From Chromatiales bacterium (GTDB taxonomy: Bacteria > Pseudomonadota > Gammaproteobacteria > SpSt-1174): a stretch of 64,000 nt of DNA. The notes beneath the pieces were generated by a model that searched no databases, had not been told where the DNA came from, and was given only the letters and a program-made list of their open reading frames with translations. The stretch's first letter is position 1; every line of letters begins with the position of its first letter. Below are positions 8,436-12,752 of this stretch, piece by piece. The stretch covers positions 1 through 64,000 of the forward strand of contig JABURS010000038.1 of the NCBI GenBank assembly GCA_014762505.1, given 5' to 3'. The position numbers were made by a program, and so were the translations under genes.

Positions 8436-8519
8436 AAACGAGCCAGGCAACGGATCGAGGCACATGGATCGGCCGTTTGCCCGGCACAAGGTGATTGAAG
8501 CAAAGCAGGAGATAGGACA

Positions 8520-8717
8520 ATGCTTATTTTGACTCGTCGTGTTGGCGAAACCCTCATGATCGGTGACGAGGTCTCCGTGACCGTGCTGGGCGTCAAGGGC
8601 AACCAGGTGCGCATCGGCATCAACGCCCCCAAGGACGTCTCGGTACACCGGGAAGAGATCTACGAGCGCATCCAGCGCGAAAACGACACCCCCGGAGCCG
8701 CTGGCGGCAACCAGTAA
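8520..8717 (+). CDS. csrA: Carbon storage regulator CsrA
   Basis: CsrA (RsmA) is a small dimeric RNA-binding protein that blocks or stabilises mRNAs carrying GGA motifs, and it commonly controls motility and biofilm genes. The 65-residue product has the complete fold, starting [20 protein letters not shown] and containing [23 protein letters not shown], with the RNA-contacting residues L4 and R44 regions intact. AGGAG lies eight bases before the ATG. It follows lysC, as in Pseudomonas, but has its own 280-base AT-rich leader after the lysC terminator. Confidence 0.98.
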
Positions 8718-8727
8718 GCGCCAGCAG

Positions 8728-8757
8728 TGAAAAAGGGGTGGCAACACCCCTTTTTCA
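8728..8757 (+). terminator. Rho-independent terminator of csrA
   Basis: A 13-base stem, TGAAAAAGGGGTG (8728-8740) with CACCCCTTTTTCA (8745-8757), is closed by a GCAA tetraloop and contains the T-run in its 3' arm. It could work on both strands. Confidence 0.92.
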
Positions 8758-8790
8758 TGCCCGAACACCCCGATTTCCCCCTTCATCCCT

Positions 8791-8819
8791 TTGATTTTCC
8801 CACCCCGCCCGGGTATCCT
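8791..8819 (+). promoter_or_regulatory. Sigma70 promoter of tRNA-Ser
   Basis: TTGATT (8791-8796) and TATCCT (8814-8819) have an ideal 17-base spacer and lie about 40 bases before the tRNA. The region after the -10 box is GC-rich, as in stringently controlled stable-RNA promoters. Confidence 0.7.
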
Positions 8820-8860
8820 TGCACCTCGCTGAAACTGGCACAGCGCCAGTCCTCAGACCC

Positions 8861-8950
8861 GGAGAGATGGCCGAGTGGCTGAAGGCGCACCCCTGCTAAG
8901 GGTGTATAGGGGAAACTCTATCGAGGGTTCGAATCCCTCTCTCTCCGCCA
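8861..8950 (+). tRNA. tRNA-Ser(GCU)
   Basis: The 90-base gene folds as a class II tRNA. The acceptor stem is GGAGAGA with TCTCTCC. The anticodon loop CTGCTAA gives GCU, reading AGC/AGU. A long variable arm follows, and the T-loop is GGTTCGAATCC. The CCA end is encoded. The strong promoter upstream and the inverted repeat downstream support an independent transcript. Confidence 0.97.
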
Positions 8951-8951
8951 T

Positions 8952-8997
8952 ATAAATAGAAAGGGGCCCCCGGTTTTGGGGGCCCCTTTCTATTTAT
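8952..8997 (+). terminator. Long perfect inverted repeat after tRNA-Ser
   Basis: A 20-base perfect stem (8952-8971 with 8978-8997) encloses a six-base GGTTTT loop directly after the CCA end. It is probably the tRNA terminator, although the T content lies in the stem rather than in a following tail. A second, slightly diverged copy lies at 9151-9197. Confidence 0.75.
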
Positions 8998-9010
8998 CAG
9001 GACACAGGTA

Positions 9011-9440
9011 TTCGAACCCTCGATAGATAGACAAGATGGTTCGACCGCCGAGCGAAGCGAGGTGACGGCGACCAACGGGAGCCCATCCCTCTCTCGGCAA
9101 CCGCTCCTGCGTTGCTCTACCTCCTGCTTCCATGCAGTCGTCTCCGCCATATAAACAGAAAAGGGGCCCCGGTTTTTGGGGCCCCTTTTCTGTTTATCAG
9201 GACAGCCAGGGCTTCGAACCCTCGATAGATTAAAAAGTCTGGTTCGATCACCCGGGCGGTAGCCCGGGGGACGGGGAGCGCCAGCGACCCAATCCCTCTC
9301 TCGGCAACTGCTCCTGCGTTGCTCTCGACAATTGCTCCTGCATTGTTCTACCTTCGCCCATCCATGGGCTCGTACCTCCTGCTTCCATGCAGTCGTCTCC
9401 GCCATATAAACAAGAAGGGCCCCTCGATAGACAGCCAGGA
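9011..9440 (+). repeat. Degenerate copies of the tRNA-Ser 3' half and its terminator
   Basis: This gene-free stretch is built from pieces of the tRNA. An inverted copy of the T-arm (TTCGAACCCTCGATAG) occurs at 9011-9026 and again at 9213-9228. Direct pieces GGTTCGA (9038, 9241), ATCCCTCTCTC (9085, 9292) and TCTCCGCCATATAAA (9141, 9396) are in tRNA order but separated by inserts of about 40-45 and 93 bases. The second piece set is followed by a full terminator-like hairpin (9151-9170 with 9178-9197); the third is truncated at its terminator. No complete second tRNA exists here. Confidence 0.85.
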
Positions 9441-9463
9441 TGTCGATTCGACGGCTGCCCCCC

Positions 9464-9492
9464 TTGACGCCTCCGGCCGATCCCCTCATAAT
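9464..9492 (+). promoter_or_regulatory. Sigma70 promoter of tRNA-Arg
   Basis: TTGACG (9464-9469) and CATAAT (9487-9492) have a 17-base spacer, with the -10 box 13 bases upstream of the tRNA. Confidence 0.75.
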
Positions 9493-9505
9493 TCGCAACC
9501 TTCAA

Positions 9506-9582
9506 GCGCCCGTAGCTCAGCTGGATAGAGTACCTGGCTACGAACCAGGCGGTCGCACGTTCGAATCGTGCCGGGCGCGCCA
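9506..9582 (+). tRNA. tRNA-Arg(ACG)
   Basis: The 77-base gene has acceptor stem GCGCCCG with CGGGCGC, D-loop CAGCTGGATAGAG, anticodon loop CTACGAA giving ACG (ICG after deamination, reading CGU/CGC/CGA), T-loop GTTCGAATC, and an encoded CCA. Short minus-strand reading frames here of the APGTIRTCDRLVRSQVL type are tRNA artefacts, not genes. Confidence 0.97.
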
Positions 9583-9588
9583 TACAAG

Positions 9589-9615
9589 AAAGGCCCTCCA
9601 CTGGAGGGCCTTTTT
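9589..9615 (+). terminator. Rho-independent terminator of tRNA-Arg
   Basis: AAAGGCCCTCC (9589-9599) pairs with GGAGGGCCTTT (9603-9613) around a three-base loop, and the T-run continues to 9615. Confidence 0.9.
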
Positions 9616-9811
9616 GCGTCCGGTACGGTTCGAACGTGCGACATGGACAAAGCCACGTTCGACGAGCGAGCGAAGCCGCGAGAATGGCGGAGCGCCAGCG
9701 ACGCCAGTCCCGCCGGGGTGAGCGCAGCGAATAATCGTGCCGGGCGCGCCATATCCCAAGCCCTCCCCGTGTGGAGGGCTTTTTTGTGCCCGGCGCGGTT
9801 CGAATGTGCGG
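9616..9811 (+). repeat. Degenerate copy of the tRNA-Arg 3' half and its terminator
   Basis: Directly after the tRNA-Arg terminator comes an inverted, slightly diverged copy of the tRNA 3' region (9616-9642). A direct ACGTTCGA (9655-9662) follows, then a 71-base insert, then ATCGTGCCGGGCGCGCCA (9734-9751), which continues the tRNA exactly. A second terminator hairpin (9758-9766 with 9773-9781, then T-run to 9785) and another inverted T-arm copy (9786-9811) complete the unit. The layout is the same as that after tRNA-Ser. Confidence 0.85.
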
Positions 9812-9831
9812 CCGCATCATCGTGCGCCGTT

Positions 9832-9914
9832 CTGGATTCCGGCTTTCGCCGGAATGACGAAAGAGACGGCGGCGTGATGGATTTTCCGTCATCCCTGCGA
9901 AAGCAGGGATCCAG
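9832..9914. repeat. Inverted pair of GGATTCC..GGAATGACG-type repeats
   Basis: Two hairpin-forming modules face each other: 9832-9859, with CCGGCTTTCGCCGG at its centre, and 9887-9914, with CCTGCGAAAGCAGG at its centre. The outer ends CTGGAT and ATCCAG match. This is a REPIN- or MITE-like arrangement of a short repeat common in proteobacterial intergenic DNA. From 9915 to about 10094 I see no gene. Confidence 0.7.
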
Positions 9915-10094
9915 TCTCGAAGCCACCCACGTTAGACACTCCCGCTGGCCCAGGTGGCCCCGCCCGTTCTGAATCCTGGCCGCTGTTCAGGGATGAGTGA
10001 CGAAATAACCGGGCGATCTCTGACGATGCGTTCGCGTCGCTGCGCGCTCAACGGCGTACGCTGGACAGCCCTGATCGTGGTTCGTTACAATCCG

Positions 10095-10245
10095 TCCCGT
10101 CATTGGGGAGTAGCCGCCCGCGCAAAGCGGGGCCTGTATCAACAGACTTGGTCTTCGGGCCATGGTGCAGGCAGTCTCCGACCTGGCAAGACCTTTGACC
10201 ATGCCGCCTCCGCGTTGGCCGGAGGGGTGGTGTGGTCATCGGTAT
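10095..10245 (+). promoter_or_regulatory. yybP-ykoY manganese riboswitch
   Basis: The stretch has the conserved yybP-ykoY elements: TTGGGGAGTAGCC (10103-10115) at the 5' side, followed by a GCCCGCGCAAAGCGGGGC hairpin, and CTGGCAAGACCTTTGACC (10183-10200) at the 3' side. It sits just upstream of a Gdt1/UPF0016 gene, a known partner of this Mn2+ riboswitch. The likely action is to open expression when manganese is high. Boundaries are approximate. Confidence 0.88.
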
Positions 10246-10269
10246 GCATCCGGCCAGGGTATGTTTTCC

Positions 10270-12489: not shown

Positions 12490-12752
12490 CCCGGTTGATC
12501 GCGCCTCGCGGCACTCCTACGACGCCTTGGGTTAATCCGTAGGTGCAATGCCGAAGCCGGAGCGAGAGTGCCGATCCCGATCGCGCCTGGCGGGCGCTCC
12601 TACGGGTGCCGGTGTCCGGATGTAGGCGCTGCGTTTATGCCCTCTGGGTGCAAGCTGCGATGCCCGTGCTTGGCCGACGTGCCATTCCTGATCGCGCCTT
12701 GCGGCGCTCCTGCAGTGCTGGCCATGATTGAGGCCGGGGCAATAACGCGTCC
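12490..12752. repeat. REP-like intergenic repeats
   Basis: Between the convergent metallopeptidase and Anbu genes are several copies of a GATCGCGCCTxGCGGxxCTCCTAC-like element (around 12498-12521, 12578-12603, 12622-12715). One copy carries the 17-base module TTTATGCCCTCTGGGTG at 12634-12650. I see no gene here. Confidence 0.75.

Follow-up and report, generated by a model that had tools for sequence, protein, structure and literature searches.

The locus considered here raises the question of why a tRNA gene should be followed by a second, interrupted copy of its own 3' end. Within the window, by which is meant the whole stretch of 64,000 nucleotides analysed, the genes run in the order alaS - lysC - csrA - tRNA-Ser - tRNA-Arg, and both tRNA genes are trailed by such copies. 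An earlier note had described the arrangement behind tRNA-Arg(ACG) and had read the breakpoint common to independent tRNAs as the mark of a general process acting at T-loops. Its layout of the Arg unit proved correct to the base in coordinates, in the 71-base insert, in the 18-nt continuation and in the second terminator with its inverted copy. Table 1 presents an overview of the features; within the Arg unit, TTCGA lies at 9658-9662.

Table 1. Features of the tRNA-Ser and tRNA-Arg region of the window.
Feature	Position	Strand	Remark
csrA	8520..8717	+	65 aa; synteny anchor
tRNA-Ser(GCT)	8861..8950	+	ARAGORN; Rfam RF00005
tRNA-Ser terminator T1	8952..8997	+	20-bp perfect inverted repeat
Inverted T-arm copy, Ser unit 1	9001..9027	+	89% complementary
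GGTTCGA, direct T-stem/T-loop copy to position 58, Ser unit 1	9038..9044	+	
40-nt hairpin insert, Ser unit 1	9045..9084	+	contains GAGCGAAGCGA
First piece of direct tRNA-Ser 3'-end copy	9085..9095	+	ATCCCTCTCTC
Secondary insertion within acceptor copy	9096..9140	+	GGCAACCGCTCCTGCGTTGCTCT...
Second piece of direct tRNA-Ser 3'-end copy	9141..9149	+	TCTCCGCCA
Ser array terminator T2	9151..9197	+	
Inverted T-arm copy, Ser unit 2	9200..9229	+	
GGTTCGA and 44-nt hairpin insert, Ser unit 2	9241..9291	+	GAGCGCCAGCGA at 9276
Direct 3'-end copy, Ser unit 2	9292..9404	+	split by secondary insertion at 9303-9395
Third Ser unit	9406..9442	+	decayed start
tRNA-Arg(ACG)	9506..9582	+	ARAGORN
tRNA-Arg terminator T1	9589..9613	+	
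Inverted copy of T-arm and part of acceptor of tRNA-Arg	9616..9642	+	5' strand of predicted stems P1 and P2
T-stem 5' strand and T-loop, copied directly as far as position 58	9654..9662	+	CACGTTCGA; 3' strand of P2
71-nt hairpin domain of Arg unit	9663..9733	+	ends GAATA; sequence reading
Exact copy of tRNA-Arg positions 59-76	9734..9751	+	ATCGTGCCGGGCGCGCCA; 18/18; 3' strand of P1; CCA end
Arg unit terminator T2	9758..9787	+	
Second inverted T-arm copy	9786..9812	+	truncated second Arg unit

By sequence reading, the 71-nt Arg domain includes the elements TGGCG-GA-GC-GCCA-GC-GA-CGCCA, CCC-GCC-GGG and GC-GCA-GC. The tRNA-Ser(GCT) gene carries two units and the start of a third, and its direct 3' copy is split once more, inside the acceptor strand, into pieces of 11 and 9 nt by a second repeat, which corrects the earlier description. 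This second repeat reads GGCAACyGCTCCTGCGTTGCTCT... and is located at 9096-9140 and 9303-9395 of the window and at G000:C33:91877-91917. Its core occurs five times genome-wide and only in the Ser-GCT and Ser-GGA arrays, a confinement that suggests exchange between arrays at different loci.

The units belong to a known kind of element of which those in the window are divergent new members, and the finding is both real and genome-wide. They are almost certainly of the TLR/RtT kind (tRNA-linked repeats; RtT in Rfam). According to the literature cited in PMC8144298 (Egan and Landy 1978; Rudd 1999), TLRs have been known from E. coli since 1978 as the 178-bp repeats of tyrT. That source counts 22 copies at 10 loci in E. 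coli, in all of which 18-19 bp repeat the 3' end of the preceding tRNA or rRNA without a mismatch, and describes them as being without known function. The E. coli elements (tyrT repeats, rtT/RttR RNA, argVYZQ spacers) have in common with the present ones a 3'-end copy of 18-19 bp, a break in the T-loop, an inverted T-arm in tyrT, tandem copies and a hairpin domain in which (G)AGTA is followed across the break by ATCC. In the tyrT repeats the anatomy is the same, inverted T-arm included, and the break falls between TTCGA and ATCC; rtT RNA is annotated as spanning +8 to +178, its 3' end lying exactly at the copied CCA. The tRNA-Arg(ACG) locus is itself syntenic, as the orthologous E. coli locus alaS - csrA - serV - argVYZQ carries TLRs at argV, argZ and argQ, beside csrA and serV. 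The differences from E. coli are that most units here come after a strong intrinsic terminator, that about a quarter of the tRNAs, four Ser genes included, have units, and that the inserts in the window are divergent (the Ser ones being short) and fall below RF00391 detection.

The Rfam model RF00391 spans the same stretch as the units here, beginning with the inverted arm and closing with the copied CCA, and it recognises some units of this genome and none in the window. At a gathering cut-off of 45 bits it matches the tRNA-Tyr unit with 63.8 bits (G000:C6:461-587), and below the cut-off it matches both Gln-TTG units (35.4 bits) and the Ser-GGA unit (30.4 bits); elsewhere it scores 64.9 bits at a Lysobacteraceae tRNA-Tyr and 56 at a Thioalkalivibrio tRNA-Ser. 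Window positions 8500-10200 remained without an RF00391 match even when E was relaxed to 5, for which reason the units there are classed as TLRs and not as RF00391 members. Their tie to the TLR/RtT kind runs through their anatomy and through a model, R1, which was built without the window units and finds all three of them: the Arg unit at 9620-9751 (44.0 bits, E 1e-9), Ser unit 1 at 9002-9102 (41.2 bits) and Ser unit 2 at 9204-9309 (38.5 bits). One E. coli tyrT unit and three units of this genome were in the training set, so R1 matches to those four are not independent. In the E. coli regions chosen, R1 finds the units at argV, argZ and argQ and the 5S-linked unit of rrnB, and it gives no match in the metT, argX, leuQPV and leuU regions.

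The earlier note had proposed scanning all tRNA loci, and had named a single local duplication as the alternative should the pattern be absent elsewhere. When the 2.77 Mb genome was scanned, units or partial units were found behind 11 of 44 tRNA genes, on several contigs, and dozens of other genomes have them as well. One local duplication is therefore ruled out, since the units are scattered over contigs and match different tRNAs, and the notion of a general process at independent tRNAs with a common breakpoint is borne out. The tRNAs concerned are Ser (GCT, CGA, GGA and one TGA), Arg (ACG and CCG), Phe, Glu, Gln TTG, Gln CTG and Tyr; the Gln CTG unit is without an inverted copy and the Tyr unit is decayed. 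Two-unit arrays are present at Glu, Gln-TTG, Ser-GGA and Arg-CCG. Across the 44 tRNAs, the match to an inverted T-arm within 110 nt downstream is bimodal, with tRNAs that have units at 15-18 of 18 and the remaining ones at 9-13; upstream of the tRNAs, as a control, 12 is the highest value. All 15 genome-wide matches of R1 lie directly downstream of tRNAs. The inverted and direct copies best match the host tRNA or another tRNA for the same amino acid, the exceptions being the Tyr unit, which is decayed, and the direct copy at Ser-GCT, which is split. The sequence GAGCGNNAGCGA was also considered as a dispersed genome repeat and rejected, its 27 genome-wide matches being equalled by the 27 in a reversed control; 12 of them are within units downstream of tRNAs. 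In the insert region of one tRNA-Phe locus on the minus strand (L033), the GAGCGTCAGCGA motif is oriented opposite to that of the other motif-bearing units.

The dominant breakpoint across loci is 58/59. Among the matches listed, the first matching base of the copy is 58 or 59 at 70 of the 105 tRNA loci where the 3' end recurs, a set that includes some plain neighbouring tRNAs. Two parts of the earlier interpretation have nevertheless to be given up. What it called an insert is not an interruption and is instead the conserved hairpin domain of the TLR/RtT family. Furthermore, the process is not specific to T-loops: the 5S-linked TLR of E. coli rrnB has the same layout, GAGTAGG followed by hairpins and then AACTGCCAGGCAT, with its flank and 3' end copied from 5S rRNA, a gene without a T-loop. 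The RrA, RrB and RrF sRNAs between rrn T1 and T2 likewise resemble the present units in their succession of RNA gene, T1, hairpin domain, copied 3' end and T2, and differ in having 5S rRNA as the host gene, with no T-loop; their expression comes from read-through of T1. No clear inverted copy of a 5S arm was found in the rrn-linked unit (11/18). What TLR units have in common is a stable RNA's 3'-terminal strand.

Comparison of sequences further places TLR units behind the tRNAs of diverse Gammaproteobacteria and of another class within Pseudomonadota. Of 369 genomes of the class, 65 have an RF00391 match, which exceeds the cut-off in 23. R1 has matches in 80 out of 398 genomes of the phylum, some of them from a family in a different class; similar named loci such as L084 suggest that this class is probably Alphaproteobacteria. 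At 18 of the best 19 R1 loci looked at, the match adjoins a tRNA whose 3' end is repeated, and typical cases break at 58/59. In a scan of named genomes with follow-up loci, the inverted copy lies mostly at +25 to +60 and the direct copy mostly at +130 to +185 in many taxa; the exact-pattern scan is biased to GGTTCGAATCC tRNAs, and its counts of tRNAs and taxa are not frequencies. Closer to home, two congeners have units behind the same tRNAs in 8 of 8 testable cases, and at Glu and Phe the congener has lost the second 3'-end copy. Another genus of the family keeps the inverted copy only at three Ser tRNAs and has six weaker R1 matches.

Within these arrays the terminators are homogenised. T1 and T2 are alike within a genome and different between congeners at Arg-CCG, as seen in both genomes, and the same likeness within a locus is found in the congener at Ser-CGA and Arg-ACG. 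Behind tRNA-Arg(ACG) the congener G001 has two complete units (G001:C30:12769-12901 and 12598-12730), where the present genome has one and a stub. In E. coli, between 1 and 14 tyrT-like places were counted per genome. The likeness of T1 and T2, the difference in unit number at Arg-ACG and the copy range in E. coli are consistent with tandem recombination and concerted evolution. Such tyrT-like places also occur on E. coli plasmids (18), and at the sensitivity used they are absent from 715 of 5,426 E. coli genomes.

The explanation favoured here, which is moderately probable as a whole chain, is that TLR units give rise to a small read-through RNA whose CCA end is cut by tRNA-processing enzymes, and that recombination homogenises the arrays. 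Sequence comparison establishes the anatomy, a link in this genome exclusively with tRNAs, the match with the host tRNA, recurrence across Pseudomonadota and the homogenisation of T1 and T2. A unit comprises, in order, a terminator, an inverted tRNA arm, GGTTCGA, the hairpin domain and a copy of positions 59-76 with CCA, and further units are added in tandem behind the stable-RNA gene, each opening with its own terminator. Leaky read-through of T1 would place the unit in the tRNA precursor, where the inverted copy may pair with the 3'-end copy to give an acceptor/T-like helix ending in CCA. Cleavage by tRNA-processing nucleases could then set free a small RNA, some 110-170 nt long, in the manner of E. 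coli rtT. Recombination between the 3'-end and terminator repeats would duplicate, delete and homogenise units, such that each array tracks its own tRNA. In E. coli, RrB is made by read-through of a T1 that is 87% efficient (PMC8144298), and both E. coli RrB and Thioalkalivibrio RtT at 10 °C are reported to be transcribed and processed to small RNA (PMC8144298, PMC8092127). A crude scan across taxa detected T1 in only about half of the units, and therefore read-through of a terminator is not universal.

Predicted folds are compatible with such an end. Pairing of the inverted copy is possible both with the direct copy further downstream, giving P1, and with GGTTCGA, giving P2; for the Arg unit of the window, P1 is predicted at 13 bp and z is -2.57 under RNA parameters. 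A typical insert folds as a row of hairpins, usually four, ending in (G)AGTA with ATCC after the break, and the median z of the minimum free energy is -2.6 over 61 non-redundant inserts. A MAFFT/RNAalifold consensus misaligned the stems and retained only 8 pairs, and compensatory changes can be seen by eye between Thioalkalivibrio-type units. A covarying tandem-GA motif has been described in RtT (PMC7657543), and it fits the GA-GC-GNNA-GC-GA hairpins seen in the units.

Among the rival explanations, the one that survives best is fail-safe termination or insulation, whereby T2 and the hairpins stop leaky tRNA transcription and the released RNA is waste. The order T1, unit, T2 in the window and in rrnB would suit this role, as would the report that rrnB T2 terminates 100% of transcription (PMC8144298). 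For insulation, however, a duplicated terminator would suffice, with no need of a copied CCA end, an inverted arm or a hairpin domain, and many units are without a detectable terminator. Insulation is unlikely as the full account of the units.

It is also possible, if rather improbable, that the inserts were selected or generated as single-stranded DNA hairpins and not as RNA. Loops of the form GNA or GNNA on the tRNA-sense strand are best known from very stable single-stranded DNA mini-hairpins, and they make up 57% of the hairpin loops in the 61 non-redundant inserts as compared with 7% in shuffles. They account for 14 of 96 loops in the terminator region, taken as the 55 nt that immediately follow the tRNA. 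In the inserts of 83 parsed TLR units most hairpin loops are GNA; the 106 GNA triloops divide into GAA (43), GCA (40), GGA (17) and GTA (6), and UNCG tetraloops are not among the common loops of these units. G-U pairs are rarer than expected, at 3.8% against 7.3% in shuffles, which selection at the RNA level does not predict and which thus counts against an RNA. It is this scarcity, together with the excess of GNA/GNNA loops, that gives rise to the single-stranded DNA reading. Against it speaks the fold of the Arg unit, which is more unusual with RNA parameters than with DNA parameters (z -0.25). If the units did act as single-stranded DNA, TLRs could be very small repeats that target tRNA and 5S genes and spread or are renewed through single-stranded DNA, and their ends would be rebuilt from the host gene each time.

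About equally improbable as the whole explanation is template switching during replication, in which the nascent strand would fold back at the terminator and copy the tRNA arm in reverse, followed by tandem slippage. The T-arm, terminator and inverted arm do form one long near-palindrome centred on the terminator, and copy number changes in the arrays; yet template switching offers no source for a conserved hairpin domain common to E. coli and other genera, leaves its fixed place at 58/59 unexplained and does not suit those units, such as Gln-TTG, that have no terminator before the inverted copy. It may still explain the origin of the inverted copy. Both fold-back replication at the terminator and T2-based insulation are partial rivals to the processed read-through RNA.

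The T-loops and 3' ends of tRNAs are classic attachment sites, and the 18-nt repeats of the 3' end could accordingly be leftover att sites of small elements since lost. The block of positions 59-76 is like the att identity blocks generally known in tRNAs, and tandem 3'-end copies occur at many tRNAs. Such scars are nonetheless very unlikely, as what lies between the repeats is a conserved structured domain of near-constant period and not the random remains of islands, the units are orthologous between congeners, and the 5S-linked member has no tRNA site, so that the break is not confined to places of tRNA integration. Least probable of all is an RNA that sequesters CsrA, an idea prompted by the in vitro binding of RrB to CsrA (PMC8144298) and by the csrA gene at 8520-8717 beside these tRNAs, given that the 19 tRNA-linked TLRs scored below 0.01 for CsrA binding (PMC8144298), that only 17 of the 106 GNA triloops are GGA, and that the nearness of csrA is not special to the TLRs because csrA-tRNA synteny is also found in E. 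coli.

The comparison sharpens the definition of a TLR to an inverted host arm, a break at 58/59, a hairpin domain with GNA loops, a CCA end and homogenised terminators, and it shows such units behind tRNAs of many kinds, across Gammaproteobacteria and in one further class of Pseudomonadota. With a sharper definition and a wide spread, old questions become testable, namely the role of the RNA and how units keep matching their own tRNA. For annotation, T-arm repeats near tRNAs need not be the scars of phages, and antisense ORFs over them should be treated as spurious. In the window, long antisense ORFs cover the tRNAs and units at 8896-9498 and 9248-9892 on the minus strand, and their peptides, for example GERGIRTLDRVSPIHP and ARPARFERATAWF, are likely to enter databases as spurious hypothetical proteins. 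Further downstream, at 10093-10260 on the plus strand, lies a Mn2+ riboswitch (yybP-ykoY, RF00080, 87.7 bits) upstream of an ORF (MFSMEAFLISTGIVALAEIGDKTQ...) that presumably encodes a membrane protein resembling the UPF0016/GDT1 type.
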